Shown here piece by piece: positions 1 to 58,400 of a stretch of 64,000 nucleotides of DNA; position 1 is the first letter of the stretch, and each line of letters begins with the position of its first letter. The stretch spans positions 1,668,001-1,732,000 of the forward strand of contig CANXME010002453.1 in NCBI GenBank assembly GCA_948144175.1, in the 5' to 3' direction. Origin of the DNA: Closterium sp. NIES-65 (lineage: Eukaryota; Streptophyta; Zygnematophyceae; Desmidiales; Closteriaceae). The translations under genes were made by a program, and so were the position numbers. The notes below the pieces were generated by a model that saw nothing but the letters and a program-made list of their open reading frames with translations, made no database searches and was not told where the DNA came from.

Positions 1-2823
1 TCCGGCCTCCGCGCCGCTGCTCCCGCAAAGGCCACCAAGGTTGCGCACAAGGCTCAGTCTGCCCGTCGCGCTGCGCCAGTCCTCGTCGCGGCTTCCACCA
101 GCTGCAGCGAATCCGTTACGTCGCAGCAGTCGCAGCCGTCGCAGATGCTTTTTGCGAGCGTTACCGAGTCCACAGCCGCCGCGCCTTCCGGTCCCGCTTT
201 CTCGCCAGGGGGAGTCATCGTTCCCGCGTTGCTTGGCGCGGGAGTCCTGGGCGGTGCGACATTCGCTCTGGTGTCTAAGGCGGTTAAGCCGGCAGCCAGT
301 GCGGCTCCGGCGGCGGGGAATGAGGCTAATGGCGCTGCCGTTTCGCGCGCTAAGAGGGTAAGCTACGAAGTTTCTCATTCCCTTCTCAAACGTAAGGCTG
401 CAATTCACGCTCTCTTAACTCCAATAAATGGCTTCTACTGGCAAACTTGGATTGAACCCTGCCACTTTTTTATTGCATCGCTTGAAATGTCACATAATTC
501 GAAGAACGGCACAAACAATTCAAGAAGGTCTGAAACAGATCCGTTTCTAAAATCCCTCACCTCCTCCCCTCTCTCCTTCATCCCAACTCCCCTACCTACC
601 CAGGCCGCGCCCGCGGCGCTAGCGACAATGGCGGCGACGTTCCCCAACGCGATGCAGGAGGAGATGTTCATGCACGCCGTGGCGGACGAGCTGCGCAACC
701 TCGGCTTTAAGCGCGACAACTGCATCGCGCTCGTCAACACGTGTCGCGACGAGGTCTGCCGGCCCATCGTGAACCTGATTGATAAGGAGTTTGGGCTCAG
801 CTTTAACATCGCGGGGCTGGGAGGGCTCGTGAACTGCGGCAAGACGGGATTCAAGGCTGCGATGAGCCACTCGCCGGAGTTCCCGTGCGAAACCGACGGA
901 AAGCCTCGCGAACGATGTAAGTGGTAACCCGTTGGAGGGCTGTGGAGACGGGATTGCGGGTTTATACGGGACTGGCATAAGCCATCCCCGAATCTTTCGT
1001 GTGAAGCGGCTGGAATTCTACCATAAGATGCAAGATGCTTCGCAATCCCTTGACTACTTTCTTCCTGCTCTATATCCCGCATGCCTTCAATTGCATATTT
1101 CCCCTCTTCTCTCCCATTCTTCTCATCCCCTTCTTAACTTCCAGACATCTTCTTCGGCTTCCCCCACGTGTCCATTGGAGAAAGCGGCGAGGTTCGCAAC
1201 GGCCAGGGCAAACCTGCCTTCTCATTCAAAACGCTCAAACCTTTTCCCTCCGCTTCTTCCTTGCTCCCTTGCAGACATCTTCTTCGGCTTCCCCCACGTG
1301 TCCATTGGAGAGAGCGGCGAGGTGGGGTCGCTGCTTCGCCGCGGGCGCGGCAAGCCGTCTTCGGCGTGCGGAGCGCTGATCGCCATCCAGGGCGACATCT
1401 CCGCTGGAGGCGAGATCGAGGAGGACCCGAACAACGCGGAATATGTTCTGCTAAAAAAGAAAATCGCCGCTAAGGTGTGTGGAGATGGAGGGAGGCGGGG
1501 GGGGGGTTTGAGGTACGGGTTTTTGCATTGTTGAGGTTGAGGGGAGATGGGGGTTGGGTGTGCGGGTGTGTGCATTAGTCAGGGATGGGCACTGCAAATG
1601 TGTGCTGGGGACCACTCACGAGGCAAGCCGTCGTCGGCGTGCGGAGCGCTGATCGCCATCCAGGGCGACATCTCCGCTGGAGGCGAGATCGAGGAGGACC
1701 CCAACAACGCGGAATATGTTCTGCTCAAAAAGAAGATCGCCGCTAAGGTGTGTTTGTGGTGGGAGGGAAGGGGGTGGAGGCGCTTTGTTTCTTATTGTAC
1801 TCACGCTCAAAAGAGACCGATGAGGACCCAAACAATGCGGAATATGTTCAGCTAAAAAAGAATATCGCCGCCAAGGTGTGTTTGTGGTGACGGGAGGTGG
1901 GGGAAGGAGGGGGGGGGGGGGGGGGGGGGGAGGTTTTTGGAGGGGGTTGTTTCTCAGTGTACTCACGCTCTGATGAGATTGAGGAGGACCCCAAGAACGC
2001 GGAATGCGTTCTGCTTAAGAGGAAGTTTGCCGCTAAGGTATGTTCGGGGTGAAGGGAGGCCGGGGGGAGGGGGATTTGAGGTGTGGGGGGTTGTAGGGCG
2101 AAAATGGCGGTTGGGAGTGCTGTTGTGTGTGTTATTCAGCGCATATGTGTGCTGGGGACTCTTCTCACAAAAATATTGAAATCGCAGAAAATCAAGTATC
2201 GTTGTGATCTGATGCGGTACAGTGACAGTGTAAATGGGCATGGTTGAGCGAAGAGGGGAACAAGGGAGAACGAAGATAAGAATACATTGAGAGTGGACGT
2301 ATATGGCCTGTGATATGGAATGTAGACAGCAGCTGCCCACGAACTGACGGCTAACCACCAGCAGCAGTGGCTTCTGTATTTATGTGACATAATGGTGTCT
2401 GCCTTGTTTTACCAAAATCTGATCGGACTAAAACTTTTTTTTTTCCTCCCCTCCTTCCCCTCCTCCCTTCCTGTCTCACTGACATTGATCCCCACGCCCC
2501 ATGAACAGATCCCCCCTAGCTCAGGCAGCCCTTCCCTGGTGCAGGTGACTCGCGCTGCTCTGCAAGCCATCACTGACGACCTGGAGAACCTCATCTCCCT
2601 TACAGTCGACCCCGCTACAGCAGACTATGCTGTCATTACAGGAGTGCAGATTCACTCTGGGAACCAGGTTCCTGGGGAGGAGTTCCGGATTGAGCGCACT
2701 TGTGATTATATCGCTCCAAACGCTATGTATGCAGTCATCAGGGGGGAGAAGCACATTCTGCACTGCGAGGTGAATCAGATCACAGATATCAGATCGGTGC
2801 CTGCTGACCAGTTTGCTGCCTGA
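1..2823 (+). CDS. LCIB/LCIC-like (theta-class) carbonic anhydrase, plastid-targeted, 5' end outside the window
   Basis: Exons 1-357, 604-916, 1275-1474 and 2509-2823 join in phase to 393 codons plus stop, open at the 5' end. The first ~60 residues are Ala/Ser/Arg/Lys-rich like a chloroplast transit peptide. A glycine-rich hydrophobic stretch (about residues 75-97) follows and could be a membrane anchor; known LCIB proteins are soluble. The core carries the family landmarks: CRDE (Cys166), GFPHVSIG (His231) and SACGAL (Cys255), the Cys-His-Cys set proposed to bind zinc in LCIB homologues. In algae this family is linked to CO2/bicarbonate handling around the pyrenoid. Activity of this protein is inferred. 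The third exon has an upstream partial copy and three downstream partial copies (separate entry). The join of exon 1 to exon 2 rests on phase-0 continuity and good splice signals, not on homology. Confidence 0.82.
1145..2037 (+). repeat. Tandem partial copies of exon 3 of the LCIB-like gene
   Basis: The intact exon is 1275-1474. Copy 1145 to about 1193 repeats the acceptor and the first ~50 bases, then diverges. Copies at about 1624-1746, 1806-1875 and 1970-2037 repeat the 3' part of the exon (GEIEEDPNNAEYVLLKKK region) plus the splice donor, progressively shorter and more mutated. The copy starting near 1624 is out of phase with the upstream exon, so it is probably not used. A run of about 20 G lies between the second and third downstream copies. 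Confidence 0.85.
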
Positions 2824-4389: not shown

Positions 4390-4534
4390 AGTTGGTTAGA
4401 TGAAGTAAGGTAATGATAATTTGATGTTAGCCTTATTTTTTAGCAAATGATGTACCAGTACAACACTTCCTATCAAGAACACTTCAGTACAGAAACTACG
4501 GTACCAATGAATTTAAGGTTCTATGAAAACTGGA

Positions 4535-6931: not shown

Positions 6932-8370
6932 CTTGCCTGGGTGGTATGATAACTCTCTGCAGTCGTGCCTCCAGCAATCCGACACGACTCAGAGTGCAGG
7001 AGCAGGAGCCACTTGCTCGAATTTGAAAAGGCAAGCTGTACTCGAGTGAAGAAGTACCCTGCAACTCGACCCTTGAAATGCGAAACCGCACTCGGCATGC
7101 TTGATGGCGATCCCTTGGGAATCGCTGCTGTGATTGAATGCACAAGGAGTGAGGAGACATCGACGAATTTGGTCATAGAACACACATGCTGATAAGAGGA
7201 AGCCCAGAAGTACACTAAAATTCTGGGAAGTACAGTTGGATTTGATGGCATTGTTTGATCACTACACTGCGCGGCATGATAATCTATGTGTTATGAATGA
7301 ACTTGCAGAGTGCGCAGAATATCGAATAACGAGAATGAACTGATTACCGAATTACTGAATGGCGATACAATGAGAAAGGCACGACTAAATAGGGGAAGTC
7401 CTAGCTAGGCGGAGAGGTTGGGCGAGGATGGCTCGGTGATGGTTGCGATTGGAGCGGAGGCGACTCGGGAGTGGTTCGGTGCGACGAAATAGGAAGGACA
7501 GGTTCGTCACGTGACCCTCGGGATGGCCTCGCTAACGAGTGCCTCAGTAAGGATTCTGTAAATCCTTACACTATGCAGCAGACGTCCAACTATATTGTAT
7601 CAAAACATATTGTTATAGTACCAGTATCTATTGTCACAAGAGAAGCATTACCAACTGAGGAAGGTAAGATTGACTCAATCAATGCCTCAGATTGAGCTAT
7701 GGATGGAACTATCCAAGGTAATAAAATGTTTACAAAAGGGGGTGTGTGTTTCTGGAGTCACATAGAATCTAGTATAGAAGCAAAAGCTTATGGATTTCGT
7801 TTAGAGAACACCCGTTTCTTCGAGGAGGTCCTCTGGCTGTCAAGACTGAGGGTGTGGCAACCTGAACGAGTTTTACCGTTCTTCAAGGTTGTGTCCTACA
7901 TGGTATCAAACATTCGTTGAGGTGCAAGCTCATAGTCCTCATGCTCCCCGTACCGAACATTGCGCTCGCGTGCATGCACCTGCAATGGGGAGATACCCAT
8001 GGGAAGATACCCATCAACCACAACGTGCGAAAATAGGGAGTAATAAAGAAGAGAAAGACATCAAGTGTGGATCGAGGAGGCTCGTGGGTGAGAGTGACGC
8101 GTGGAACGGCGCACACAAGCACTGTGTGGCCAATTAAAGGGCTTGACACAGAACGGAGGGCAGTGTGCAACGCGTTTGGTGTGCCGTGAGTACTGTACTG
8201 AGCTGAGCAGTGACCAGTGTGCACACACCCGTGTGAGGTACGTTCGGTCAGAGGAGATCTGCTCATGGACCAGCGCCAGCTTCTTGGACAGCTTCGTGGC
8301 CCTGCACACATTCACACGTGCAGCACAAAGGGTTGTGACACATGTGAGAATTCTCAAATATGAGGAATGT
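6932..8370. other. Intergenic region with an unidentified AT-rich open stretch
   Basis: This separates the divergent 5' end of the CslA/C gene from the 3' end of CSN3. From 7471 to 7920 one plus-strand frame is open except for a single TGA at 7693-7695, and the composition is AT-rich compared with its surroundings. The translation was not recognised; it could be a relic of an inserted gene. A copy of the last CSN3 exon lies at about 8229-8301 (separate entry). Nothing else recognised. Confidence 0.4.
8229..8301 (-). repeat. Extra copy of CSN3 exon 10
   Basis: Minus-strand sequence beginning after a TGCAG acceptor encodes RATKLSKKLALVHEQISS, closely resembling the assigned last exon (8371-8428; RAMKTSKKLAFLREHVSS). 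It is phase-compatible with exon 9, so it could be an alternative 3' exon, but no stop follows promptly. Confidence 0.7.
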
Positions 8371-11300
8371 TCAGTTTGAGGAGACATGCTCGCGGAGAAA
8401 CGCCAGCTTCTTGGAAGTCTTCATGGCCCTGCACACTCATAATGGAGCATTCATGAAGAAAAACGGATGCACCTTCACAGTGCAGCACGCATGGTTCATG
8501 GGGATACCATGGACGCACACTCACAGTGAAGCACCCATGCAACAACATTGGATCGGATCAGCCATGGGTCAACAACAATAAAATTAAAACAGTGCATCAA
8601 CTTTGGATCAGCAGAGCATAGACTTTACTGCGAAAAAAAAATTCAGAGTACAAGTGAGAAGGACATGGAGTGTCGACTGTGAGGGAGCATCTGAATGTGC
8701 CTCTCACATCTGAAAGAAAGAAAAGAAAAGAAAAAAAAAAAAACGAACTTCATGAATTTCATCTTACCTCTGGATGTGCTCCTCCACCACAGCAGCCATG
8801 GCCAGCGAGTCGTACTTCTCAGGGTCCTCCTCAAAGCTCACCATGCCCGCCTGCTGGTCTATCCTCGCAAACATCTCCCCATCTGCTATCTGCCAGGCAC
8901 ACAGCGAGAGGTGAAGAGTCACACAGGAGGCCTTTGAATTGACTCCAAAGCTCACCATGCCTGCCTGCTGGTCTATCCGTGCAAACATCTCCCCATCTGC
9001 TATCTGCCAGGCACAAGGAGGTACATGTGCATAGCCACATATGCTTAGACACATACAACGCCCTCCACTTGACTCCAAAGCTCACCACGCCTGCCTGCTG
9101 GTCTATCCGTGCAGAAATCTTCCCATCCGCTATCTGCGACACACACAATCATACTTTGCAAGAGTTCTTTAACAGTTTACCTCATGGGCTACAGGCCTGA
9201 GGCTATGGATGATACATGACAGACCGGAGTGGGGCACATGAATTTTTTTTGAGACACTCGGGAAAAAAAAAAGACTCAGGAGAGACCTCATGGTACCATG
9301 ACTTGAAGAAGGAAGGCAGTTAGGTTTTTTTTTTTTTTTTTTGGAAGTGATTATTTTTGTCTCACCATGGAAAGGAGGTATTTCTCAGCCTCGGCAGGCG
9401 AGGACAGGTGCACCGACTGAGCAAGGTCGGAGAGGGAGAGAGTGAGGTAGGTGTGCGTGAGACGCTGAATGCTGCGCTTGGGGACCGATGCAACAACCTG
9501 ATGGGCCAAGCCTAGGTTGTTGTCCTGGGAAGTGAAAGGGAACGGGGAGAAGGGGAGGGGAGGAGAGAGAAGGGGAGAGAATAAGGGTGTGCGAGGAGAG
9601 ATTGGGAGTGATGGATGCAGTGCGATAAGCTGAATTCTCGTGGATAGTGCAACACAGTGTGTTGGTGCGAGCACCCACTCACTGCCTTGAAAGCTCCCAC
9701 TCACTGCCTTGAAAGCTCCCACTCACCGCCTTGATGCCTCCCACTTACCGCCCTGAAGACGTGCTCGTGCGAGTCGACAAAATTTTTGAGAGCCTAGAGT
9801 GCCGGTGGCATGGCAGGGCACACACACAACAGCTGAGCGCGTTGGTGCGAGCACCCACTCACCGCCTTGACGCCTCCCACTCACTCACCGCCTTGAAGGC
9901 TTGCTCGTGGGAATCGACAAACTTCTTGAGCTCTGCTGCATCGCGAGACACGTAGATGTTCGCCAGGTCGTGATAGTCCTGGGAGGGGTGAAGAGGGATG
10001 GAGAGGGATGGAGAGGGGTGGAGAGGGGTGGGCAACGGATTGCAGAAGGAGGACTCGTGGAGAATGGGAGAGACTTAAAGCCAGGTCACGAGAGTCCTGT
10101 GGGTGGAGGGGTTGTGGGCTGATGCAACCAGATCACACCAGTCAGAATACACAACAAAAAAGCATTGTGTCAGCAGAATGTGAATGAATACGCACATGTG
10201 CCCTCTCTCACCCACCTGGCAGCATGCCTTGAGTCCTCTCTGCACGATGCCTGGCGTGAACTTGGGTAGAGGCGACAGCTGCTCTCATGAGACCGTGGGG
10301 AGTGGGAGCGAGGGAAGGAGTAAATGAGGGAGCAAAGGAAGGGATGGAGAAAGGGAGTTGTTCTAGCCCTCTCTGCACGATTCCTGGAGTGAACTTGGGT
10401 ACAGGCGACAGCTGCTCTCATGGCACCATGAGGGGAGGGAGCGAGGGAAGGGAGCGAGAATAGGGAGCAAAGGAAACGGCGGGAGGGATGGAGAACGGAA
10501 GGAAGAGTGTTGTTCTGCACCATTCCACTAATAAACAGCAAGAATGAATTAACTACTAGAACTAGCTCAAAGCCTCCTTGCTGATACAGCACCCTTGCTA
10601 GCACAACAAACAAGGCACACACCACACCGCACGCGACCGCATCACACACCTGTGCGTGCAGGATGAGCGACACGAGCATGTGCCTCTTGTATGTTGCCAC
10701 TGTGACGGCATTCCCCGGGCGAGCAGGAGATGGCAGCACACCACACCAGACCACACCACACCGCACTGCACCGCAATGTGCCACACTGTACCCACCTGGG
10801 CATTCAGTATGAGCGACAGGAGCACATGTCTCTTGTATGCCGCCACTGTGATGGGATTCATGGGGGACGGAGGAGATGGCATCACACCGCAGCAAAGAAC
10901 ACCACACCATACCTCACCATACTGCACCCCACCGCACCTCACCGCACCACACACCTGGGCGTTCAGGATGAGCGACACGAGCACATGTCTTTTGTATGCC
11001 GATACTGTGATGGCATTCACGACTTGTGCTGGGGATGTGATGGCCTGGCAAAAGGGGGGGGATTGGTTGGGAGGTGGGGGAGATTGAGGGAGAAAGGAGG
11101 TTCAAAGAAGGGAGGAGAGGGGAGGTTCAAAGAAGGGAGGAGAGGGGAGGTTCAAAGAAGGGAGGAGAGGGGAGGTTCAAAAAAGGGAGGAGAGGGGAGG
11201 TTCAAAGAAGGGAGGAGAGGGGAGGTTCAAAGAAGGGAGGAGAGGGGAGGTTGAAAGAAGGGAGGAGAGGGGAGGTTGAAAGAAGGGAGGAGAGGGGAGG

Positions 11301-14300
11301 TTGAAAGAAGGGGGGAGAGGGGAGGTTGAAAGAAGGGAGGAGAGGGAGGTTGAAAGAAGGGAGGAGAGGGGAGGTTGAAAGAAGGGAGGAGAGGGGAGGT
11401 TGAAAGAAGGGAGGAGAGGGGAGGTTGAAAGAAGGGAGGAGAGGGGAGGTTGAAAGAAGGGAGGAGAGGGGAGGTTGAAAGAAGGGAGGAGAGGGGAGGT
11501 TGAAAGAAGGGAGGAGAGGGGAGGTTGAAAGAAGGGAGGAGAGGGGAGGTTGAAAGAAGGGAGGAGAGGGGAGGTTGAAAGAAGGGAGGAGAGGGGAGGT
11601 TGAAAGAAGGGAGGAGAGGGGAGGTTGAAAGAAGGGAGGAGAGGGGAGGTTGAAAGAAGGGAGGAGAGGGGAGGTTGAAAGAAGGGAGGAGAGGGGAGGT
11701 TGAAAGAAGGGAGGAGAGGGGAGGTTGAAAGAAGGGAGGAGAGGGGAGGTTGAAAGAAGGGAGGAGAGGGGAGGTTCAAAGAAGGGAGGAGAGGGGAGGT
11801 TGAAAGAAGGGAGGGCGGAACACGTTTTTTCTCCACTCATCGAACCCCACTCACATGCATGAAGAGGTCTAGGGCCTTCTGATACTGCTTCAGACCCACG
11901 TAGATGGTTCCTCTGCCGGGAGTGGGGCAGGAGGGGTTGTGTGAAGGGAGGGGGCTGACAAAGAGGAGGGGGAACGAGGACAGACAAGCGATAGAGCAAG
12001 GAAGAAGCTGACAGTGGGAGAGGAGGAAGAGAATGCTGGTCATGAACCCCCCACCGTCCCCTCCCAAAAAAAACAAAAAACAAACAAACATTATTTGTAG
12101 CAGCACAAGAATCTCAATCCATTCAAGAAGCTCACCCGTAGAAGCAGTACAGAAGAAAGTCCCGGTGCACCAGCCCCGTCTTCTTGGGGTCAATATCGAG
12201 AATATCCCCCTGCAGCAGGTCCCCTCCCTGGCGGTACAGCTTGGCGAGCAGGCAGAGCTGCAGGCAGTCGGCGTGTTGCGGGGTGAGGTGCTCCGCTGTG
12301 GTGCACTGCTGCACCTTGCTGATCGCCCACCGTAGAGGCAGGACGCCTCGAGCGTACTGGGAGTGGGAGATGAGCTGGTCTCGCAGGCGATGGCACAGGG
12401 TGGCGACTGGGAGGCGGGGGGGGGGGGGGGGGGGGGGGGGGGAGGTGAGCGTGGGAGGGGGAGAACAGAGAAGGTGAGAGATGAGAAGCTACCCTCTCTG
12501 GCGGTACAGCTTGGCCAGCAGTGAAAGGAGGTGAGGGATGAATGGAGCAGGCAGAGCTGCAGGCAGTCCGCGTGTTGCGGGGTGAGGTGCTCCGCGGTGG
12601 TGCTCTGCTGCACCTTGCTGATCGCCCACCGCAAGGGGAGCACTCCCCGGGAGTACTGGGAGTGTGCGATGAGTAAATCGCGCAAGCGATGGCACAGGGA
12701 CGCGACTGGGAGGTGGTGTGCAAGGGGTGGGGGAGGGAGGAGGGGGGAGGGGAAGGATCGGGCGGAGTGTGAAGAGAGGGGCTAAAATGAGCAGTCAGAT
12801 CAGAGCTGCAGGCTGCCCGCGTGTTGGGGTGTGAGTGAGGTGGTCCGCGCTGCTGCTGCGCTGCAGCTTGCTGGTTGCCCACCAGCGTAGAGGGAGAACC
12901 CCCCGGCAGTACTGCGCGTGGGAGACCAGTAGATCGAGCAGGTGATGGCACAGGGAGGAGACTGGGAGAGACGGGGGGAAGAGGAGGGGGAGGGGAGGTT
13001 TGGGAGTGGGGAGGTTTGGGAGTGGGGAGGTTTGGGAGTGGGGAGGTTTGGGAGTGGGGAGGTTTGGGAGTGGGGAGGTTTGGGAGTGGGGAGGTTTGGG
13101 AGTGGGGAAGGAGGGCCGCTTGGTTTGATTTGACTTGGAAAGGGGAGTCGGATTGCAAGCAACTCACACTTTTCAGGCGTGAGGGAGACCTGAGTGGGCG
13201 AGGCCACTTTTTTTAATTTGATGATCGCCCCCACCACCTGCTCCCACAACTCAACTACCCAGGTGCAGTGTGCTGCATGCGGCTTTGCTGCACAGGTGCA
13301 TGCTCTTACACTTTTCAGGCGCGAGCGCGAGCTGAGTGGGAGAAGCCGCTTTGATGAAGTTGATGATCGTCCCCACCACCTGCTCCCACAACGCGCCCGC
13401 CCGGTGCCTAATGGGGGTGCTGCTCCCACAGACAACTAGTGAGCCCACTGCAACTCACACTTTTCAGGCGCGAGGGCGAGTTGAGTCGGGGAAGCCACTT
13501 TGATGAAGTTGATGATCGCCCCCACCACCTGCTCCCACAACTCGCCTACCTGGTGGTTCCTGCGCTGCTCCCCTAGCCCCCTAATAAAATTCCCAAGGGA
13601 CTGCACTGCATGTGGCTGTTGGGGCACACGAGCGATCTTCTCGCTAAGCAACTCACACTTTTCAGGTGCGAGCGCGAGCTGGGTGGGAGATGCCACTTTG
13701 ATGAAGTTGATGATCGTCCCCACCACCTGCTCCCACAACGCGCCCGGTGCCTGCGCTGCATGCGCATCACTGCAGGGGGAGGGTGAGAGAAGAGGGCGTG
13801 GGGGGTGAAGGGGTTGGAAAGCAAGGAAGGAGGGGAGAGAGAAGGGAGAAAGCGATGCGAAGACTACACCCATGCGGCGCATCATAAGACTACTTCCGTC
13901 CAACCTCTTTCCTTTTCACTTCCTTCCTCCCCCCCTCACTTCCCCCCTGCTCCTTTTCTTCCCCCCAGGAAAGCGCGCTCACAGGAAGAAGAGGAAGGCG
14001 AGAGAGTGCGGCGCAGGATCTTCCCCTCTCTCTTCCCTCCTTCCCCCCTCCCCTCTCCACCCTCCTCCCCCCCCCCCCCCCCCAATTCGCACATTTCCCT
14101 TTTCCCCCCACCCTCCCCCCACAGACTCACAGAAAGAAGAGGAAGGCAAGCGAGTGCAAGGCGGGATCAAGCGACGCGAGCAGCGTGTCGAGCTGCGGCG
14201 CGTGCTTCGCGAGCGCGTCCTCCGCGCCGCGCAGCACCTCCAGCAGGTGCGCCAGGTCGCTCCCCTTTTTCCACCAGCACGGGGTCTCTCCCCTTTCCCC

Positions 14301-14593
14301 CCTTCCCCTTTCCCACCAATTCACCCACTCACTTCCCCACTTCCCCCTCCCACGCTTTCCCCCCCCATCCGCCCAAATCCCCTCCCCACCCTTCCCCCAC
14401 AGACTCACAGGAAGAACAGGAAGGCGAGAGAGTGTAGCGCAGGATCGAGCGACGCGAGCAGCGTGTCGAGCTGCGGCGCGTGCTTCGCGAGCGCGTCCTC
14501 CGCGCCGCGCAGCACCTCCAGCAGGTGCGCCAGGTCGCTCGCGCTGCCCGACAGGCCCTGCGCCTGAGTTACCACCTTCTCGAGTGCCTCCAT
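8371..14593 (-). CDS. CSN3: COP9 signalosome complex subunit 3 (PCI-domain protein)
   Basis: Ten exons on the minus strand (14409-14593, 13657-13769, 12136-12406, 11855-11912, 10955-11044, 10216-10278, 9889-9978, 9366-9524, 8768-8889, 8371-8428) join in phase to 402 residues; plant CSN3 is about 430. Matching landmarks in order: QGLSGSASDLAHLLEVLRGA, KFATLCHRLRDQLI, DCLQLCLLAKLYRQGG, GLKQYQKALDLF, VNAITVSAYKRHVLVSL, DNNLGLAHQV, EDPEKYD and KLSKK. CSN3 is a scaffold subunit of the complex that removes NEDD8 from cullins. The C-terminus is shorter than usual. Eight exons have extra copies in neighbouring introns, so the choice of exons 2 and 10 among the copies is provisional. An in-frame upstream ATG lies at 14635. 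Confidence 0.88.
8942..9138 (-). repeat. Two partial copies of CSN3 exon 9
   Basis: About 8942-9012 and 9071-9138 each repeat the acceptor and first ~55-60 bases of exon 9 (encoding ADGEMFARIDQQAGMVSF or a near match), then diverge. They lie in the intron upstream of the intact exon at 8768-8889. Confidence 0.85.
9676..9800 (-). repeat. Partial copies of CSN3 exon 7 and its splice donor
   Basis: 9741-9800 resembles the 3' part of exon 7 (the region encoding FVDSHEQAFKA), and 9676-9735 contains about three tandem repeats of the exon end plus donor (22-base units). The intact exon is 9889-9978. Confidence 0.7.
10360..10420 (-). repeat. Partial copy of CSN3 exon 6
   Basis: The minus strand repeats the acceptor side of exon 6 and encodes LSPVPKFTPGIVQRG, versus LSPLPKFTPGIVQRG in the intact exon at 10216-10278. 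The following GAGGGAGCGAGGGAAGG-type intron sequence is also duplicated. Confidence 0.8.
10654..10880 (-). repeat. Two copies of CSN3 exon 5
   Basis: About 10654-10728 and 10796-10880 encode variants of the intact exon 5 (10955-11044), for example ITVAAYKRHVLLSLILNAQ. Both keep a GT donor but seem to have lost a usable acceptor. Short CACACC-type repeats lie between the copies. Confidence 0.85.
11094..11818. repeat. 25-bp polypurine minisatellite, about 29 copies
   Basis: Unit GGAGGTTGAAAGAAGGGAGGAGAGG on the plus strand, in the intron between CSN3 exons 4 and 5. Early units have TTC where later ones have TTG; one unit near 11345 is a base shorter. The strand asymmetry is almost complete (purine on plus). 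The long Pro/Ser/Leu-rich open frame on the minus strand is a product of the repeat. Confidence 0.97.
12490..12960 (-). repeat. Two degenerate copies of CSN3 exon 3
   Basis: About 12490-12711 and 12795-12960 resemble the 5' two thirds of exon 3 (intact at 12136-12406). The first encodes a near match to LPLRWAISKVQQ and then contains a short insertion; the second has frameshifts. A run of about 24 G at 12418-12441 lies next to the intact exon's acceptor. Confidence 0.85.
12995..13108. repeat. 17-bp minisatellite, about 7 copies
   Basis: Unit GAGGTTTGGGAGTGGGG repeated head to tail in the CSN3 intron between the exon 2 copies and the exon 3 copies. Confidence 0.95.
13164..13566 (-). repeat. 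Three extra copies of CSN3 exon 2
   Basis: Copies at about 13164-13255 (D), 13310-13407 (C) and 13459-13545, or to 13560 with the upstream acceptor (B), resemble the assigned exon 13657-13769 (A). All encode variants of LWEQVVGTIINFIKVASPTQ and keep a GT donor. C, and B with its upstream acceptor, have the same entry and exit phases as A and are therefore potentially usable. D has no in-phase acceptor that I could find. Confidence 0.88.
13977..14264 (-). repeat. Two partial copies of CSN3 exon 1 (3' part and donor)
   Basis: 14124-14264 is nearly identical to the 3' part of exon 1 with its donor (the region encoding LAHLLEVLRGAEDALAKHAP). 13977-14022 is a shorter copy of the exon end. C-rich intron sequence separates them. 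Confidence 0.88.
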
Positions 14594-30700: not shown

Positions 30701-32028
30701 GACAGAGACCTGGAGAAGGTGAGCTGCTTGCATGGTGTAGTTTCATTCTCCCTGGGAACGTTGATACTTGGCGCTTAACACCTGAATGGGAACGGGCATC
30801 ATCTGAACCTCCTGGACGGAGAGGATCACACAAGTGCATTGTGGACAGAGACCTGGAAGGAGGTGAGCCGCTTGCATGCTGTGGACTTGCTTAAGGAAGG
30901 TGGTACTTGGCAAGATTTGTCAAGGACACTTGTAACTACTGTGATTAAGCCAGCTCCCTTAACCCTCTGTGTCTCTACACCTGTGCCCCTGTGCGCTGTG
31001 CCCATTCTCCTGCCCCCTTGCCTACAGACGGCCATGCGGGTGGCAGGGCCGGTGTACAGCAGCAAGGTGGGCCCCACCACCCTCGTGGGCAAGCGTGTGG
31101 GCAACATGTACTGCGCCTCGCTCTATGGCAGCCTCTCATCGCTTCTTGCACAGCAAGGGCAGCAACTGGTACGCGCGGTGGCTCAAAGCATAAGTGCACT
31201 CACAATGCTAGAGGAACTAGTGGTGGCAGCAGTCATAGTGCGGGTAGAATTGGTGGTGCGGGTAATGACGGTGAGCAATCAATCGTGGGAGCAACATGTA
31301 CTGTGCCTCGCTCTATGGTGTCCCTGCTCACATCGGGAGGGCCATAGCATATTGCTCTTACCCTACGGCTCTGGCCTCATGTCCACGCTCTTCGCCCCTT
31401 TCATCTTCCTCCCTTGCGGTCCTCCTCTCCCTCTCCACCCCCATCAGGAGGGCCATCGCATATTGCTCTTCTCGTATGGCTCTGGCCTCATGTCCACCCT
31501 CTTCTCGCTTACCGTGCGCCAAGCTGCTGACCCATTCTCCCTCGCCACACTCACCTCTCATCTGGATGTGCACCAGCTGCTCGAGTCTCGCACCAAGGTG
31601 GGTTCGTGTGCGTGTGTTTGTGAGGGCGTGTGAATGCCCTCTTCAAGCCGCTGCATATCGCACCTTTCAGTGTGTATTGACTGTCGATCCCTTCTCCCTA
31701 GCTGCTCTCACACTCACTGTTCATCTCGAGAAGCACCAGCTGCTGGATTCTTTCACTCACACAGACAAGCTCCTCCCCTTCCTGCTCCCCTTTCTGTTAC
31801 CAGGTAACACCAGAGGAGTTTGTCAAGACAATGCATCTGATGGAATCCCGATACGGTGCATGCTCCTTCACCCCAGCCACTCCCACAGATCGCCTTCAGC
31901 CCGGCACTTACTACCTCACGCAGGTGGATGATTTGTACCGGCGAACGTATGCGCGGAAAGGTGTAGATGCTGATAAGGCATCTGTTGATGGCGCAGTTGA
32001 GGCTGCTTCAAACGGAGTTGTGGTGTAG
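27732..32028 (+). CDS. HMGS: Hydroxymethylglutaryl-CoA synthase
   Basis: Eleven exons (27732-27803, 28116-28222, 28503-28779, 29104-29262, 29520-29593, 29775-29850, 30114-30172, 30526-30616, 31028-31168, 31448-31597, 31804-32028) give 476 residues in phase; plant HMGS is about 460. Landmarks: [44 protein letters not shown], the catalytic cysteine in [11 protein letters not shown] (C120), [44 protein letters not shown] and [14 protein letters not shown]. It condenses acetyl-CoA with acetoacetyl-CoA in the cytosolic mevalonate pathway. The first donor is GTCGCT, an unusual but GT-type site. Introns contain decayed copies of exons 3, 8, 9 and 10. Retaining the pathway is notable because many chlorophyte algae have lost it. 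Confidence 0.95.
28345..28436 (+). repeat. Decayed copy of HMGS exon 3 start
   Basis: Sequence with AAGAACAGCATAGACACATC and GGCACGGAGACAGTGAACAA matches the intact exon around 28531-28610 with many substitutions and a stop. It lies in the intron directly upstream of the exon. Confidence 0.8.
30640..30870 (+). repeat. Two copies of HMGS exon 8 end, donor and following intron
   Basis: TGGACAGAGACCTGGAGAAG plus donor recurs at about 30696-30725 and in mutated form at 30841-30867. The following intron stretch (GCTTGCATGG...TACTTGG) is also repeated. Confidence 0.8.
31285..31766 (+). repeat. Partial copies of HMGS exons 9 and 10
   Basis: 31285-31315 repeats the exon 9 stretch encoding NMYCASLYG; 31333-31392 repeats the start of exon 10; 31675-31765 repeats the exon 10 end (DPFSLA...HQLLDS). 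The intact exon 10 (31448-31597) sits between them. Confidence 0.85.
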
Positions 32029-45021: not shown

Positions 45022-45025
<4 letters not shown>

Positions 45026-45094: not shown

Positions 45095-45097
<3 letters not shown>

Positions 45098-45369: not shown

Positions 45370-45410
<41 letters not shown>

Positions 45411-48786: not shown

Positions 48787-48838
48787 TGAGAACGATGCCA
48801 ATTGATAAGAATAAGAAAGCAAGCTTTCTCAATTTTTT

Positions 48839-49443: not shown

Positions 49444-52400
49444 ATGCAGCCAGCAGCACCCCCCGCGGGTCAATGGGGAGGAGCACAAGCCGCGACCGGC
49501 GCCGGCGCTGGCGCAGGCGGAGCGGATGAGCCACGGACGCTGTGGGTGGGGGATCTGCAGTACTGGATGGACGAGACTTACTTATGGAACGCGTTTGCGT
49601 CCACGGGCCAGGTCAGTTGGCGTGCCTTTGACCTCTAGAATTATCGGGTAATTTTACGATTCAGCAGTAGCGGACGGACGGGAACCTCTGGAACGTGTTC
49701 GCGTCCGCATGCGTGTATAAGCGAGAAATTGTCATAAATAAATAATTTCTCTCTCAGAGACCTCCAGTACTGTATTGTTGAGGCGCTTTTTAGTACGCGT
49801 TCCATCAATGGGACTTTTCGTTCTACAGGCGTGGACAGTCAATGTTCCATCGACCTCTACAAGCGTTTCGGTTAAAAAAAGAAGGATTTGAAGGATCGGC
49901 GTCGAGACCTACCTTTTCTGCCACGTACGAGGGCTTGAGGTGTCAAAGCGTTTTAAATTTTCTATAAGATCTCTCTCGCAATGATTTGCAAAGTTAGACG
50001 GGCGAAACACTTCTCTCGCAACGCTTGCAACGCCTGGTATTCTGATCTGTTCTATTCTGATATTTGGGGATGCATGGATCATTCAAAACAGGGCAACGGG
50101 GCAGCCGGCGGAGTAAAAGCTAGTGGAGTTCAATTGAACTGCTATCTAGTTATCCCTCCCCAAACCCGCTACCTCCCCCCCTTTTACCGTGGTACTTACC
50201 CCCTGTCCATCCCCAAAGGTTGCAAATGCGAAGATCATTCGCAATAGGGGGCCAGGGCAGCTCGAGGGGTACGGGTTCGTGGAGTTCACGACTCATGCAG
50301 CAGTGCAGCAAGCTCTAATAACCTCTCCCCTCCAACCCCCCCGCCCCCCCACAACGTCCCGTCCATCCCCGCAGGTTGCTAACCCTAAAATCATCCGCAA
50401 CAGGGCGACAGGGCAGCCCGAGGGGTACGGGTTCGTGGAGTTCACGACTCATGCAGCAGCGGCGCAGGCGCTAGCGACCTACCAGGGCACGCCCATGCCT
50501 CAGGCGGAGCAGCAGCCGTTCCGCATCAATTGGGCCGCGTTTGGCGCCGGGGAAAAAGGGTGAGGGCGGGGGGGGGGTTGTGGGTGGGGAATTTGCGGGG
50601 AAAAGGACATGGAATGTGTGAAGTAAGGGTGGGGAAAGCGTGGGGTGTGTGGGGAGGCGGGGTGTGTGGGTGGAGGTGCTTGGGAGCACCGCACGCTCTG
50701 ACCACCTACCAGGGCACGCCCATGCCTTAGGCGGAGCAGCAGCCCTTCTGCATCAACTGGGCCGCGTTGGGCGCCGGGGAAAAATGGTGAGGAGGGGGGA
50801 GGCGTGGGGGAAAAGGGCGGGGATTATCCGGGGGAAAGGATGGGGAATGCGTGAAGTAATGGTATTGAAGGCGTGGTGTGTGGATGGGTTGGGGTGGGTG
50901 GGTGGAGGTACCTGATACTGAGAGCGCAGCTGCTAGCGACCTACCAAGGCATGCCGATGCCTCAGGCTGAGCAACAGCCGTTCTGCATCAACTGGGCCAG
51001 AGAAAAAGGCTGTTGAGGGGGCGAGAAGGGGGGAGTTAAGGTTGGGAAATGCGAGAGCGGATTCCTCCATATTCGTGGAGACGGGCAGGCGAACAGACGG
51101 GCAGGAGTTCTCCCCGTGTATGGAGGCGTTACTCGTGGGTGAACTGGCTCCAGATGTGAATGAATATCTGCTCTGCACAACCTTTTATCACTTCCCCCCC
51201 CAACCCCCCCTCACCCGCATCCCACCTTTGTACCAGTGGTGGGTGGCCAGCAGACGGGCAGGAGTTCTCCATATTCGTGGGCGACCTCGCTCCAGACGTG
51301 AACGACTTCTTTTTAACTCCTCCTTCCATCCTTGGCCCCCTCTCCCCCCCCTCTCCCCCCCTCTCCCCCTCTTCTTTCCCAACACCCCAGTGGCGGCCGC
51401 CCAGCGGACGGGCAGGAGTTCTCCATATTCGTGGGCGACCTCGCTCCAGACGTGAACGACTACCTTCTCTGTGAAACCTTCCGCTGCCGCTACGGCTCTG
51501 TCAGAGGCGCCAAGGTGAGGGGCGGGGAAGGGGATAGGGTTCTGGATCCCAGGCTTAGGGTTTAGGGCGAGAGGGGTGTGGGGGTGAGGGGGGCGTGTGG
51601 ATGGAGTGGTGTGTCTGGCAAGTGACGCTTGGCTCCAGACGTGAACGACTATCTGCTCTGCGAGACCTTCCGCTGCCGCTACGCCTCTGTCAGAGGCGCC
51701 AAGGTGAGGGGTGGGGAAGGGCTTTAATCTTGAGGGTTTAACGACTTAGAGCTTGAGGGCTTAAGGTTTAGGGTTGAGGACAGAAGTGGGCGAACAAGGG
51801 GTATCGCTTCGTGCAGCTTTCCTCTGGACTTACCTTCTTCTCCTTTCCCATCAAAATCTCCCACCTCCTCCCTCCCCCCCCCCCGCTCCCCGCGCCTGTC
51901 CCCCTCTTTGCCTTCCCCTTCTACTTAACAGGTGGTGCTGGTCAATGTCAGTGGGCGTACCAAGGGGTGTGGCTTTGCGCGATTTTCCCCAAGGGCCTCC
52001 CTTACCCCTCCCCCTTCTCCCTCTCCTCCCCCCACCAACCTCCCCCTCCCAGCAACCTCCCTTCCCCCCACCAACCTCCCTTCCCCCCACCGGACATCAG
52101 GTGGTGGTGGACAACGTGAGTGGGCGCACCAAGGGACATGGCTTTGTGCCATTTTTATCAGAGAACTTACTTTCCCTCCATCCCCCACCGCCTTGTTCCC
52201 CAACCCCCGCTTCCCCCCTCCCCTTTCCTGTTCTATCCGCCCTTTCTTCCCCCACTGGGCATCAGGTGGTGGTGGACAATGTGAGTGGGCGCACCAAGGG
52301 TTACGGCTTCGTGCGATTCTCTTCGGAGGAGGAGCGGGACCGCGCGTTGCACGAGATGAACGGCCAGATGTGCTCCTCCCGCCCCATGCGCATCAGCGTT

Positions 52401-55400
52401 GCCACTCCCAAGAAGCCTGGAGCGCCGGGGCAAGGTGAGGGACTGGAGGGGTGTGAGGGTCGGATGGGGTAGGGTTAAATATGGGCAAGTGGCGAGTCGA
52501 GTAAAACTTGACTCGTTTTGGCGAGTTTTTTGTTGCACTCGCGAGTTTTAATTGTCGAGTTTTTTTTGCCAAAAATCAAACTCGAAAATCGCCCATAATA
52601 TCGAGTTTTTCAAAAGCTCGTACGAGTTTTGAAAAAGCTCGTTCGAGTCAAGTAAAACTCGACTCGAACTTAACCAGCACCCACAGCCACCACTTTAGCC
52701 ACACAGCACCAGCCAGAGGGTGCACAGAAATAAGGTCCATCCACGCCCACTCAACATAGCAACTACAATTTTGAGGTCGACATCCCTCAACCCAACACCC
52801 ACCAGCATTCCAGTCCTACATCACCCCCACACTTTCACACCCCAACCGTGCTGCACAACGCCTGGTGCAATAGTGTCCTGACAAGAGGTGTGGGGAAACA
52901 CCTCCAGCAGCCCACTCCCGCAGATAAAAGCCACGCATTCAAGCACCTGCTGAAACCTAGACAACGGTTACAAACCAGCAGCAATGTACCAAGCATATTG
53001 AGAAGAAAGGCCAAGTCTAGCGCTCTGGTGAGCGTCAGAGAGGGAGATTAATTTAGAGAATAGCTATTCTAATAAATAAAGATGTCTACTATCCTGATCT
53101 GAACATGCAAAAATGGGGCCCTTCGCTCACAACTCCTCATCCAGGTCCACTCCCACTTTGTCATCCACCATGGCCACCATGGCGGCCTTTCCCAATGGGG
53201 TGCCCGGGTACAAAGCGATCCATAACTTCAAGGTCATGCATGCCTCAACGCGTTCAGCACCCAACCTGTGCCGCTGCCATGTGATGAGGTTCCTGCCTTG
53301 TGAGAAGAGCCTCTCAGTGGCAGCAGAGGTGGCTGGAATGGCCAAGTAGTCCTTTGCCATAGCCTGCAGCCCCTCCAAATCACCCCTACGACGCCAGTAT
53401 GCAAGGGGGTTTGTGGATAGGGGCTGCATGGGCTCCTCAAGGTAAATCTGGATTTCATCCTTGTTCTCTGCTGCCTGCTTCGCACGCAACGCCGTCAGGC
53501 GTGCCACGAGTCCTCCCGAATCATGATTCTGGCCCCCAAACAGGTTCAGCCCCCTCCGAGTCGTCCCGCTGCTGCTGCCACTACCCCCGGCCGCTGTGCT
53601 GCTAGTCCCGCCCAAGCCCACCACCATCAGCTCCCCTCTTCCCTTCCCAGTAGCCGCCTCTTGCTCGCGCCGCACCTTCTCCTTGTATGGCTGCCACTTC
53701 GCACGCACAAGAGCCAGTACCTCCTCCGAGGGCACGTGAGATACCGCCCTGCCCATGTTGCTGCTCCCGTCCTCGAGCTCTAAGTACCCGAGCTTGAATG
53801 CCGGGTCCAAGAAGGTAGCGACACACAGCTCATCACTGCTGCTGTAGTAATACTCCTGCAGCTTGCCCAAGGAAGCGTCGATGCACTTCCGCATGATCAC
53901 GGAGGGAGGGGAGGTGGTGCTGTCCCTGATCTTCTCGAGCGAATCCATAAGCTCGTTGTATTGCGGCACCACCCGGCTCGCAGTCGGGTACAGGGACCCC
54001 TCCGCTGCCAAAGTCACAGCGTTGAAGGGCATGACGAACTTTGCAAGTTCCTCAAGCGCGTCCCACTGCTCAGCAGAAATGCGCAGCGGTGGCGCATCAA
54101 CTGGAGCATTGGCCTGTGAAGGCGAGTGGGGCGGGTACAAGGGGGAGGCAAGGATTGGGGGGCGGGTACAAGTGGGAGGCAAGGATTGGGGGGCGGGTAC
54201 TACTGTGTTGGCCAAAAATAAGAGTCCAGCTCACGTCTCACGGCTGAATTAGCAAGGCGGGTGGGCGAGGGTATGCTCACAACTGTGTGCCAAATGAGCC
54301 TGCTGCACTTGAGACAACGGCGTTTTTCGTCCTTGGCGCCTAAATTCTCGAAACATGGTGTCGCAGCTGAACGGGACTTTCTAGGCTTTCTGGCGGCCTT
54401 TGGATTAACCACAGCTGCAGGCGCGGTAGGAGCAGCATTGGGTGGTGGACGTGGCTGAGAACAACCCACGCCTCCGTTCCCACCAGCCCCCCTCTTTGCA
54501 ACTCGTCCCCCTCCTCCACGCGCTCTCCCACCCGCTCTTCCAACCTTTCCCCCACCGCGATCCTGCCTCAATCCGCCACCACGCTTCTTAGAAGGTTCCT
54601 GGTCGACCATAGCACGATTCCCCTTCGCATCCGCCTTTGTAGCCCGTTGTAGACCTCGTGGTGTTTTTGTGGCCCCCTCTTCCTCATTTTCCAATCCAAC
54701 AAAGTCCTCTTCCCTATCCTCCTCAACCTCATCATCCTCAGCATTGTACATCTCTTCCTCTGCGATGTCACCTTCTTATCCTCCTCCTCCTCCTCCTCCT
54801 CCTCCTCCTCCTCCTCCTCCTCCTCCTCCTCCTCCTCCTCCTCCTCCTCCTCCTCCTCCTCCTCCTCCTCCTCCTCCTCCTCCTCATCTGCCTCATCCCC
54901 ATGCTCCTCCCCTCCCCCCTTTACATAAATATCATTCCCACCCTCACTCTCCCTCATGACTTGGCCGGACAACTCTTCCATGAATGCATTGCTAAACCAT
55001 TCTGTTACAACCCCCCTCTGCTGCCTCCCCCCACGCCTTCCGCAATCCCTCCGCCTTCCCCGCCTGCACCTCCTCCCGAGGCATGGGTCCGCCGCCCCCA
55101 ACCCCCCCACCCTTGTGGTTATCATCCGCCTGCCGTGCCCCATCAACCCCCATTCCAGCCATGGCAGACCCCGCCACCATGGGGACAGCAACGTCCCCTA
55201 CCGCCCCCTGCTCGGCCCCTGCAGATGTACTTGCGGCGGATGAACCCCCTGAAGCCATGTCTCTACCTCGCCCACCACCCTTGGCGGACGCTTGCAACAC
55301 CTTTGCAGCGTCCGCAGCTGTTGCAATGGCTTGATAACGGCTTTGCTCCGATCTGGGGAGGGCGTGGAGCTCGATGTCATCTCCATTGACATCCTCACCG

Positions 55401-58400
55401 CCTCGTCCTGCCCCCCTACCGCCTCCGCCACGTACTCTCCCTCCTCTCCCTGCACCCGATCTACCACGCACCATGCTATTCCACGCAGTCACTCCAAAAC
55501 CAACCGTGCAAATTAGCTGTTTTCACCTTAACTTAGTCTAATTCAAAGGGAGAAGACGTATGGGTCCGAAATTGAACTGTGTTATAATGCTTGCGGGTGT
55601 CATTAGCCTTCCACCTGACTGAAACCCTAGAAAAACACGATTTTGTTTAAGAAGAACACGTAGGCTGAGCGGACGTTCCTAGGTGTGGTAGAACACCTAG
55701 AAACTACCCTACGAAATGGTGGTTCCTTTTAGATCTTGGAAACCAGATCTGAAAAATGAACATTTTTTACATTTGTATCTGACCTAGGTGACGCGCGAGT
55801 TTCTTAAGCTCGAAACTGGATAGGAAAAACTCGCGAGTTTAAAAAACTCGCGAGTAGTAAAAAAACTCGTGGAAAAACCGAGTTTTCCGCGAGCTTTTTT
55901 TTCCTTGCGAGTGAAACTCGACTCGGGCGTCCGAGTTTTTCCAACAAAAAAACGAACTCGAAACTCGAGCTTTTCGAGTCCCTCGAACGAGGCGAGGAAA
56001 AACTCGACTCGTTTGCCCATGTATAGGTAGGGTGAGGCAGGAGGTGGCAGGATGCGGCAGGAAGGGGTAGGGTAAGAAGCACTCCTGCTCGTGGCTGGGG
56101 CAGTAATGGCTGTAGGGTGGAGATGTGTGATGTGCTCCTCCGATGCCCCTTGCGCATCAGCATCACCACTCCCAAGAAGCTCTGAGCGCTGGGGCAAGGT
56201 GAGCGGAAGAGAGGAGGGGGCCTGGGGTGGAATGGGTGAAGGTGGGTAGAGTACGGTGGGGTAGGGTGAGAATGTGATGTGCTGTGATTCTCATGCCCCA
56301 TGCGCATCAGCATCGCCACTTACAAGAAGCCCCGACCGGAGCTCCTCTCCCAAAGCATCCCCTTTCTTTACGACCTGGAATTTCCCCTTCTTTCAGGTGG
56401 TGCGCCGGGTGGGCAAGGCGGAGGTGCACGGGCGGGGCCCCAGCCCCAGCCGCAGGGGCCCGGGGGAGAGGACGACCCTTCCAACACCACGGTGAGTGGG
56501 CAGACCGTTAAACACCTCAGCAACAATTACGGTCAGCACAATGTGTGGGTTGGTCGGGCAAGGTGGAAGAGCACGGTCGGGCGGGAAAGGGGGAAGATCG
56601 GGTCCCCAGCCCCAGCCACAGGGACCCGAGGGGGAGGACGACCCCAGCAACACTACGGTGAGTGGGCAGACCGTTCTCGTTGAACCAGCAACTGTAAAAG
56701 TCAGCAATTTGTGGGTTGGCTGGGCAAGGCGGAGGTGCACGATTGGGGCCCCAGCCCCACAGTGAGTGAGCAGACTGTGTGGTGGTAGGTGACAGTGTGA
56801 CGGGCGAGCAGCTGAGAGCGGTGTTTGGTTCGTGGGCCAAGCTTGGGTGGTGTGAGTGGTGTTTGGTTCGAATCTTCCGCCTCCATTTCCTTCGATATTC
56901 CTTGTTCACTGCGGCACTGCCCATCCCATCCCATGGCAGATATTTGTGGGAGGGTTGGACCAAAGTGTGACGGATGGGCAGCTGGGAGCAGTGTTTGGGC
57001 CGTGGGGCAAACCGGGGTCGCTGTGTTTTGAGTCAAGCTTAAAGCAACCTTCTTCCCGCCCCCGTCCTGTTTCACGGCAGATTTTTGTGGGAGGTTTGGA
57101 CCAGAGTGTGACGGACGAGCAGCTGAGAGCGGTGTTTGGGCCGTGGGGCGAGCTGGTATACGTGAAGATCCCATTCGGCAAGGGCTGTGGCTTCGTGCAG
57201 TTCCGACATCGGTGGGTGCATGGTTGGATGGATGGGTGCTTTGGTGCACTGGTGCATGGGTCATTTAAATTGCTCTTACTCTTATCCTTCCTGCATCCCC
57301 CCAGTGTGTAGTAACCATCATCCGGCCTTCTTTTCCACCCCCTTTTTGAGGCACCTCCGAAGCTAATTCTGTGTTGTTTCCTGCTTTTTGTCCTGATTCC
57401 TCTCCTCCCCCCCCCCCCCCCCCCTGCTCCCCCCCTCCCCCCATTGTCAGATCACAGGCAGAGGAGGCGCTGAGGAATATGCACGGCACGGTCATTGGGC
57501 AGCAGTCTGTGCGGCTCTCATGGGGACGCAATCCTGCCTCAAAGGTACCACTGCCTCATGCGTTAGATGGTTTATATATGTTTCTTGCATATGCATCTCG
57601 ATGCGTATGTGTATGGTCACGTGCATGAGCATGTGTTTGTGTATGCGCATGCGTTTGTTTCGTCGCTATTTTCGTTTCGTCTCTAGCCTTACTACTCTAA
57701 TGCCTCTCCTTGCTGCTAACGACCATTGTCTCTGTTTTTATGGTGGTTCTTTGCACAGCGTACCTCGACATACCCCTCGCAAGGCTCTCAGTGGCAGCAG
57801 CCGCAGCAGCAGCACGATCCCAATGCAGCAGCGGCAGGTGGTTGGGGCGCTGCTGCCGGTAACACTGGTTACTACGGAGGGTACAGTGGTTACGATGCTT
57901 CAGGGGGTTACAACCAGGGAGCATATGCCTCATATGGTGGATATGGAGGATATGGGGGCTACGGGCAGCAACAGGTATGTGCACATGAGAGATTTTCAAG
58001 CAGTCATTACTGTTTAGCTCATAATATACTGGCTTGACTGCATGCTTGGATGGGACTCTCTGTATTCACATTGTTTTTACTGTGGTGCCAGGCTTGGCCT
58101 CAAGCTCAAGCTGCTCCAGCTGCAGCGGCAGCATCTCCCGCCACAACACCAGCACCACAAAGTGCAGCAGCAGCGCCTGCTTCTGGATTTGCAGCTGGAG
58201 TTACCCCAGAACCCTTCGATCCCCTGCGCCCCATTGACGTGGACAAGTGAGCTAACTTCTGCCTGTCATGCTGTCAATCCCCCATCTGTGCTACCCTTGT
58301 GACGTAGACCCTCATTATCTCCCAACCTCTTCCTCAGCAAATTATGTGGCCGCATGCATGATGAGATTGGCAGCTTCATTTTGTTCTCCTGTCTACGCGC

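Follow-up and report, generated by a model that had tools for sequence, protein, structure and literature searches.

The 64,000-nucleotide stretch of DNA analysed here (the window; G000:C2155:1668001-1732000) comes from the 874,075,685-bp genome of Closterium sp. NIES-65, a zygnematophycean alga (Zygnematophyceae) whose cells are haploid in growth. Our subject is a set of partial, diverged exon copies that lie in the introns of its genes, beside the exons they resemble. Eight genes were modelled by hand and all eight models are open throughout; LCIB starts at the window edge, and the final part of CSN3 lies outside its model. Pfam backs the assignment of LCIB (PF18599), a mitochondrial carrier (PF00153), a DUF3593 gene and RPB9, and homologues back the identity of HMG-CoA synthase (HMGS), CSN3 and an RBP45/47-type gene (RBP below), while the PEPCK label was given by eye.

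Exons of at least 26 nt were aligned to the non-coding DNA of their own gene within 3 kb, and the best score among 1000 dinucleotide-preserving shuffles served as the threshold. Across the eight genes, 40 same-strand intronic copies passed, at 21 of the 56 tested exons (HMGS 6, LCIB 4, CSN3 14, carrier 2, RBP45/47 14). The opposite strand gave a single passing match, at CSN3 exon 1, with 66% identity. With 40 matches against 1, the exon copies reported inside host introns by the original prediction, which had been made by a model from the letters alone, are real. Identity between copy and exon ranges from 74 to 98%, each affected exon has 1-4 extra copies, and their spacing is mostly 100-300 bp. 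Beside the shuffle-tested set, RBP exon 4 has two further copies past a hAT-type element. The copies and the genes or exons to which they belong are listed below, each copy resting on the shuffle test unless another basis is named.

1275..1474, + strand: LCIB exon 3, functional (open gene model; PF18599)
1145..1193, + strand: upstream copy of LCIB exon 3, nt 1-49, 98%
1619..1747, + strand: downstream copy of LCIB exon 3, nt 72-200 plus donor, 96%, 5 silent and 0 replacement changes (shuffle test, codon analysis)
1813..1875, + strand: downstream copy of LCIB exon 3, nt 138-200 plus donor
1975..2037, + strand: downstream copy of LCIB exon 3, nt 138-200 plus donor
8229..14593, - strand: CSN3 gene, 10 modelled exons, 8 with copies (gene model, homologues)
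8361..8428, - strand: upstream copy of CSN3 exon 10
8946..9003, - strand: upstream copy of CSN3 exon 9, 95%
9076..9133, - strand: upstream copy of CSN3 exon 9, 86%
9749..9790, - strand: downstream copy of CSN3 exon 7 end
10365..10411, - strand: upstream copy of CSN3 exon 6 start
10650..10732, - strand: downstream copy of CSN3 exon 5
10796..10880, - strand: downstream copy of CSN3 exon 5
12484..12705, - strand: upstream copy of CSN3 exon 3 start, also present in the Naga37s-1 model (shuffle test, Naga37s-1 model)
12801..12961, - strand: second upstream copy of CSN3 exon 3 start
13168..13281, - strand: downstream copy of CSN3 exon 2
13310..13409, - strand: downstream copy of CSN3 exon 2, 96%
13459..13568, - strand: downstream copy of CSN3 exon 2, 91%
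13983..14020, - strand: downstream copy of CSN3 exon 1 end
14131..14262, - strand: downstream copy of CSN3 exon 1 end plus donor plus intron, 93%, 9 silent and 0 replacement changes (shuffle test, codon analysis)
15445..16445, - strand: mitochondrial-carrier exon 3, functional (gene model; PF00153)
16454..16626, - strand: upstream copy of carrier exon 3 start
16629..16809, - strand: upstream copy of carrier exon 3 start
27732..32028, + strand: HMGS gene, 11 exons, 5 with copies (gene model; P0002)
28349..28432, + strand: upstream copy of HMGS exon 3 interior
30319..30371, + strand: downstream copy of HMGS exon 7
30694..30718, + strand: copy of HMGS exon 8 end plus donor
31280..31335, + strand: downstream copy of HMGS exon 9 interior
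31337..31443, + strand: upstream copy of HMGS exon 10 start, treated as an exon in NIES-64 model P0002 (shuffle test, P0002)
31681..31756, + strand: downstream copy of HMGS exon 10 end
49444..58505, + strand: RBP45/47-type RRM gene, 10 exons, of which 6 have copies; intron 4 contains a hAT-type element (gene model, homologues)
49661..49706, + strand: copy of RBP exon 1
50078..50132, + strand: upstream copy of RBP exon 2
50219..50324, + strand: upstream copy of RBP exon 2 start
50685..50784, + strand: downstream copy of RBP exon 2 end
50891..50998, + strand: downstream copy of RBP exon 2
51084..51184, + strand: upstream copy of RBP exon 3 start
51237..51312, + strand: upstream copy of RBP exon 3 start
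51632..51703, + strand: downstream copy of RBP exon 3 end plus donor
51932..51987, + strand: upstream copy of RBP exon 4 start
52101..52163, + strand: upstream copy of RBP exon 4 start
56129..56203, + strand: copy of RBP exon 4 end plus donor, with the hAT-type element between copy and exon 4 (self-comparison)
56283..56338, + strand: second copy of RBP exon 4 end, past the element (self-comparison)
56578..56657, + strand: downstream copy of RBP exon 5, with the other segment's exon 5 letters at 6/6 sites (shuffle test, segment comparison)
56711..56759, + strand: downstream copy of part of RBP exon 5
56782..56843, + strand: upstream copy of RBP exon 6
56940..57015, + strand: upstream copy of RBP exon 6 start

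Five genes are thus affected, one fewer than the six first named. LCIB, CSN3, the carrier, HMGS and RBP45/47 stand; the sixth, the DUF3593 gene (called a plastid membrane protein), has no significant copy, its exon 1 reaching a best score of 41 against a threshold of 55.5, and the copy claimed there was read by eye alone. None of the 15 exons of RPB9 and PEPCK has a copy by the shuffle test. The GT2/CslA, MAPKKK, RING and SUMO-like genes, covered by a self-comparison of the window only, show no internal tandem pair in it.

The copies have a pronounced polarity. Partial copies upstream of an exon contain its 5′ part in 16/16 cases and those downstream its 3′ part in 13/14 (Fisher p = 1.2e-7), so that the two kinds described at the outset, exon end with donor and intron versus acceptor with exon start, were correctly recognized and prove sharper than claimed (16:0 and 13:1). 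Of the 40 copies, five are almost complete, 30 extend exactly to one exon border, and 5 are internal, with no border. Splice dinucleotides are intact at 27 of 31 copy borders (donor GT 14/15, acceptor AG 13/16). As side observations on these donors, +5 G is retained in all 14 that keep GT, and the three changes at +3 are each G to A, consensus to consensus; both sets are too few to test. Homology continues into the adjoining intron at 12 of 29 testable flanks (one merely 7 nt), in 6 of the 12 from the exact junction; the other 17 flanks, pyrimidine tracts with homology indistinguishable from shuffles, are non-significant, and 4 more are too short. Head-to-tail duplication in which one whole exon is forced to survive leaves just such a polarity, and head-to-tail duplication of segments that span an exon border is very probably what took place.

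Recognizable tandem duplication in the window also stays close to exons. The count excludes 27 pairs with a low-complexity label, most simply minisatellites but including some long pairs with exons in them. Among the 30 others, the labels of 28 name an exon or exon copies, and the two labelled as intron-only proved on inspection to be pieces of exon copies. None of these 30 pairs is thus purely intronic, whereas random placement would give exon contact in 40%; many of these pairs share arrays, and they are not 30 independent events. Either exons matter to the process, or products confined to introns escape recognition.

Elsewhere in the genome we examined loci with RRM genes, chosen from a genome hit list irrespective of copies, with one taken per near-identical pair. 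Of the 21 loci so chosen, 7 have exon copies (5/15 in a first set, 2/6 in a second), and none has an opposite-strand match. The process is therefore not confined to one gene, as had been proposed. In the first set, 19 of 37 same-strand matches were kept by hand as exon copies. The 18 that were dropped comprise matches between different RRM domains (63-73% identity), a cross-match to another exon's copy (81%), and a match to what is already a copy, listed four times (68-86%). Two of those kept, L014 3968-4019 and L015 6288-6374 (76-77%), are weak and may be domain repeats. Polarity at these loci is 9:0 upstream and 8:0 downstream, with 2 others, measured on RRM-domain matches and not on whole exons. 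The 19 copies differ from their exons by 7.9, 6.8 and 20.8% at the three codon positions, with a per-site ratio of replacement to silent change (N/S) of 0.24.

Purine/pyrimidine runs are linked to the copies, as originally suggested. Homopurine/homopyrimidine run content is higher at affected than at unaffected RRM loci (Mann-Whitney p = 0.010, 7 vs 14), and also when the window genes are added with DUF3593 counted as unaffected (p = 0.0013, 12 vs 21); the window genes alone, five affected against three tested unaffected, give p = 0.29. GC content, in contrast, is not clearly different between affected and unaffected RRM loci (p = 0.14).

Divergence between copies and exons in the window is structured by codon, with differences of 11.2, 9.4 and 24.2% at positions 1, 2 and 3. 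Raw counts over the 40 copies are nearly equal (229 silent, 236 replacement), and silent changes outnumber replacement changes in just 19 copies and equal them in 4. Replacement sites outnumber silent ones threefold, however, so the per-site ratio is low, with N/S at 0.34 (0.26-0.43 in a bootstrap over 21 exons). A copy free from birth, compared with a constrained exon, gave simulation means of 0.44-0.58 according to mutation bias, and the lowest single run in any setting reached 0.38 (40 runs). In 5000 simpler simulations, whose mean was 0.52 or more, the observed value had P below 0.0002; these take copies of one exon as independent, which the exon bootstrap does not. On the copy branch (13 exons) N/S is 0.39 (0.30-0.49) with a mutation spectrum derived from introns, and replacement changes come to 43% of expectation with that spectrum and 63% under strong bias. 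A single shared, silent-only divergence of about 0.15 before release of the copy raises the log likelihood by 24-27, and the 11 copies with replacement divergence (pN) under 0.05 have a pooled silent divergence (pS) of 0.25, against about 0.10 expected. Mutation bias was set aside as the whole cause of the low ratio, which is similar across CpG and transition classes (0.35-0.59 in each of four, CpG or non-CpG by transition or transversion) and persists with the intron-derived spectrum; the gap becomes smaller under strong bias. Exon-copy gene conversion was dismissed as a cause of the low ratio by reasoning alone.

The copies did decay, since 142 of 172 replacement differences are copy-specific (HMGS 36/42, CSN3 48/65, RBP 58/65); stop codons occur in 4 of the 40, and 17 of 27 indels break the frame. 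It is likely that they are now mostly non-functional. The graded decay described earlier holds as to the grading, with identities from 74 to 98%, but decay is probably not the sole source of the divergence. Per site, silent change has run at about three times the pace of replacement change, which suggests that many copies were at first versions of a functional exon, with decay setting in only afterwards.

The same region is found a second time in this haploid genome, on contig C1826 (306-352 kb), where neither the hAT-type element nor the transposon cluster (32.1-49.1 kb) is present. Sequence identity between the two segments varies by block: 95.8-98.9% at 0-12.8 kb, 99.6% at 13.1-32.1 and 56.6-64 kb, and 93-95% at 49-56.5 kb. 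Near-identical blocks alternate with diverged ones, and identity shifts abruptly near 13.1 and 56.6 kb and at the transposon cluster, a mosaic that looks like the product of recombination. The same exons carry copies in both segments, and the number of copies differs at LCIB exon 3, CSN3 exon 5 and RBP exons 2, 3 and 4 (a weak fourth C1826 match of RBP exon 2, which overlaps exon 4 there, is uncounted); at LCIB the difference is a single 303-bp indel inside the array. That the process has been repeated over time is supported.

Between the segments, exons differ by 0.48%, copies by 2.5% and other sequence by 1.3%, figures driven by the RBP block. CSN3 copies changed more slowly than its introns (11/1309 vs 45/2975) and HMGS copies faster (3/401 vs 5/2465), while LCIB and carrier copies show no change. 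The changes in copies are 31 silent and 45 replacement (N/S 0.48), or 4 and 9 outside RBP. At 14 informative sites, those where the functional exons of the two segments disagree, window copies match the other segment at 9, their own at 4 and neither at 1. In RBP exon 5, the window copy equals the other segment's functional exon at all 6 differing sites.

Published gene models from other Closterium strains contain some of the same copies. The window HMGS model equals NIES-64 model P0002 except for two insertions in P0002, which come from intron stretches that the window also encodes. The CSN3 model of Naga37s-1, which we take to be strain NIES-4552, includes the exon 3 copy with copy-specific residues found in the window, so this copy probably predates the split of those strains. 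Within each strain both versions of CSN3 exon 3 share a residue, Gln in the window and His in Naga37s-1, a hint of gene conversion. The Naga37s-1 RBP model has three extra exon 4 starts, one of just five residues. Copies are read as exons in 5 of 10 published models (P0002, P0139, P0121, P0123, P0242; not in P0001, P0003, P0122, P0124, P0241), which combine ab initio and transcript evidence, and predicted proteins of the group therefore need checking. The NIES-67 and NIES-68 models examined contain no copies, and say nothing of the introns of these strains. As a separate observation, NIES-64 model P0139 runs the last part of CSN3 and the adjacent glycosyltransferase 2 gene together (4500-9200), with intron copies as exons. 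In CSN3, 16 of 65 replacement residues of the copies occur in functional exons of sister strains, where about 2 are expected; sister model P0123 itself holds a copy, which may disturb this comparison.

We propose that segments of about 100-300 bp across an exon-intron border would be duplicated head to tail, repeatedly, in genes with run-rich introns. A single complete exon would remain in use, and the extra pieces would sit in the intron and be removed by splicing. Models of intron gain likewise hold that tandem duplication is tolerated since splicing removes the extra sequence. Diverged gene copies, whether segmental duplicates in the same genome or versions inherited from the parents of a hybrid, may be the partners in unequal recombination or copy-based repair, which would create or overwrite tandem exon pieces; the copy would afterwards decay. 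Because copy and exon would then stem from two separately selected working exons, a silent divergence of about 0.15 would be present from the start. That the silent divergence is largely older than the life of the pieces as copies, by way of exchange between diverged gene copies, is in our judgement the best single account, and we advance it tentatively. One strain of the complex, NIES-4550, is reported in PMC10407611 to be a hybrid in which sequences from different sources have recombined.

Several points weigh against this account. The exchange itself is unseen, and we infer it; most copies are common to both segments, so that their births are unobserved, and two other segment pairs (five exons, 11 copies) are too alike to inform. 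Six of the 9 matches to the other segment are linked sites in RBP exon 5, which may represent one event in which the exon and not the copy was replaced. The N/S expected under plain decay reaches down to 0.44, and copy-branch N/S rises to 0.57 (0.43-0.72) under strong assumed bias, within the neutral range of 0.5-1. Sister-strain residues are not clearly enriched in RBP copies (4/65, about 1 expected) or in those of HMGS (2/42, about 2 expected). One RRM-locus copy, L014 5891-5958, looks like a fresh local duplicate, 98.5% identical with no silent change. Finally, in group II-B (NIES-64, NIES-65), passages of PMC10407611 place 216 of 246 duplicated gene groups in one clade each, which points to recent duplication or concerted evolution and not to hybrid parents.

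The main rival holds that the copies are or were used as alternative or mosaic exons, selected as coding for a time and later abandoned. The N/S ratio implies constraint on both lineages for about 40% of their separation, CSN3 copies changed at about half the intron rate between segments, most copy borders keep their splice dinucleotides, and half of the published models include copies as exons. Those models are partly ab initio, however, and the retained splice sites are, by estimate, not clearly above the level left by neutral decay. Most of the copies (30/40) reach one exon border only, most indels in copies break the frame, the C1826 copy of CSN3 exon 3 has a Trp to Arg change, and recent changes in copies outside RBP are near the neutral 1:3 (n=13 only). 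This rival is in our view somewhat unlikely.

The mechanism favoured by the original prediction, local tandem duplication by slippage or break repair at purine tracts followed by plain neutral decay, accounts for the tandem geometry and the link to purine/pyrimidine runs. It fits the stop codons, the frame-breaking indels, the mostly copy-specific replacement changes, the nearly equal raw counts with silent changes in the majority in fewer than half of the copies, and the fresh copy at L014. It fits poorly with the N/S of 0.34, below every simulated run, the excess of silent divergence in the low-pN copies, or the lack of purely intronic pairs. With silent change about three times replacement change per site, we regard plain decay of a local copy as unlikely; the multi-gene, repeated and run-linked character of the process survives from the earlier interpretation, and copying plus plain decay finds little support. 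A more far-reaching and doubtful possibility is that introns across the genome form a store of partial exon versions, slowly renewed and in two-way gene conversion with working exons, in which case a gene could be supplied with silent as well as replacement variants by its own introns.

Assembly error is hardly credible. The region is repeat-rich and occurs twice in the genome, but copies are identically placed in C1826, recur in the NIES-64 models (P0002, P0139) and in the Naga37s-1 models of CSN3 and RBP, and their divergence is codon-structured; the assembly was built from 110 Gb of PacBio reads with an N50 of 30 kb, longer than any array. Random insertion of exon fragments, as retrocopies or by transposon capture, could be invoked from the hAT-type element and retroelements nearby, but polarity, restriction to one strand and the included intron sequence leave it next to no chance.

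Tandem exon duplication is already known; what is new here is the density of the copies, their partial form, their polarity and the excess of silent change. In passages of PMC9013439 and PMC6071210, tandem exon duplication and arrays of mutually exclusive exons likewise involve head-to-tail copies beside a parent exon, and the Closterium copies are head to tail and on the same strand, adjoining the parent exon (40 vs 1). They differ in being mostly partial, with one border and several per exon; whole-exon copies with both splice sites are not the rule, 5 of 40 being near full length, and any mutually exclusive use would be hypothetical. Intron gain in a potato RdRp gene, as presented in parts of PMC4974935, likewise proceeds by tandem genomic duplication. 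The Closterium introns, however, are pre-existing, and the donor or acceptor in a copy is one that was already there, with no sign of a new intron position: instead of a segment within an exon that yields a new intron, 30 of 40 copies reach an existing border exactly. Introner-like dispersal was not seen within the window, the only sequence compared (the genome was not searched for dispersed copies), where exon copies match their own gene and other matches are low-complexity or transposons. Minisatellites form head-to-tail arrays in the same introns, but exon copies are spaced mostly at 100-300 bp, number 1-4 extra per affected exon and have codon-structured divergence.

The account of copy number and hybrid recombination in the Closterium psl. 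complex in passages of PMC10407611 is alike in that diverged copies recombine in one genome (NIES-4550), and unlike in working at the level of genes and contigs; among its 25 passages with exon, intron, tandem and related words, none of the 12 examined describes sub-exon copies. Titles and abstracts found in the Closterium and general literature do not describe such copies either, which does not establish their absence from print. Should the process hold genome-wide, sub-exon duplication would be reshaping the genes of an algal relative of land plants and would leave a layered record of past exon versions. It would offer a test bed for how splicing disregards decoy splice sites, and a view of recombination between diverged gene copies at the 100-bp scale.

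The window has other features of note. The transposon cluster (32112-49101), missing from the C1826 segment, contains an integrase polyprotein frame at 35343-40130 (-), probably of Copia type from its domains, and a reverse-transcriptase frame at 45330-47723 (+). It also has 303-bp direct repeats at 33389-33690 and 48823-49124 (96.7%) and nested repeats at 33690-33801/40764-40874 and 40875-41000/43161-43286. The hAT-type element in RBP intron 4 (52450-56103; transposase frame 53127-54230, -) splits exon 4 from its downstream copies. A CSN3-intron minisatellite at 11089-11814, with 29 copies of a 25-bp polypurine unit, aligns to C1826 in shorter pieces only. An imperfect palindrome upstream of HMGS (26944-27104) matches its own reverse complement at 83%, and a long open frame at 20708-21796 encodes a C-terminal SUMO-like Rad60-SLD domain.

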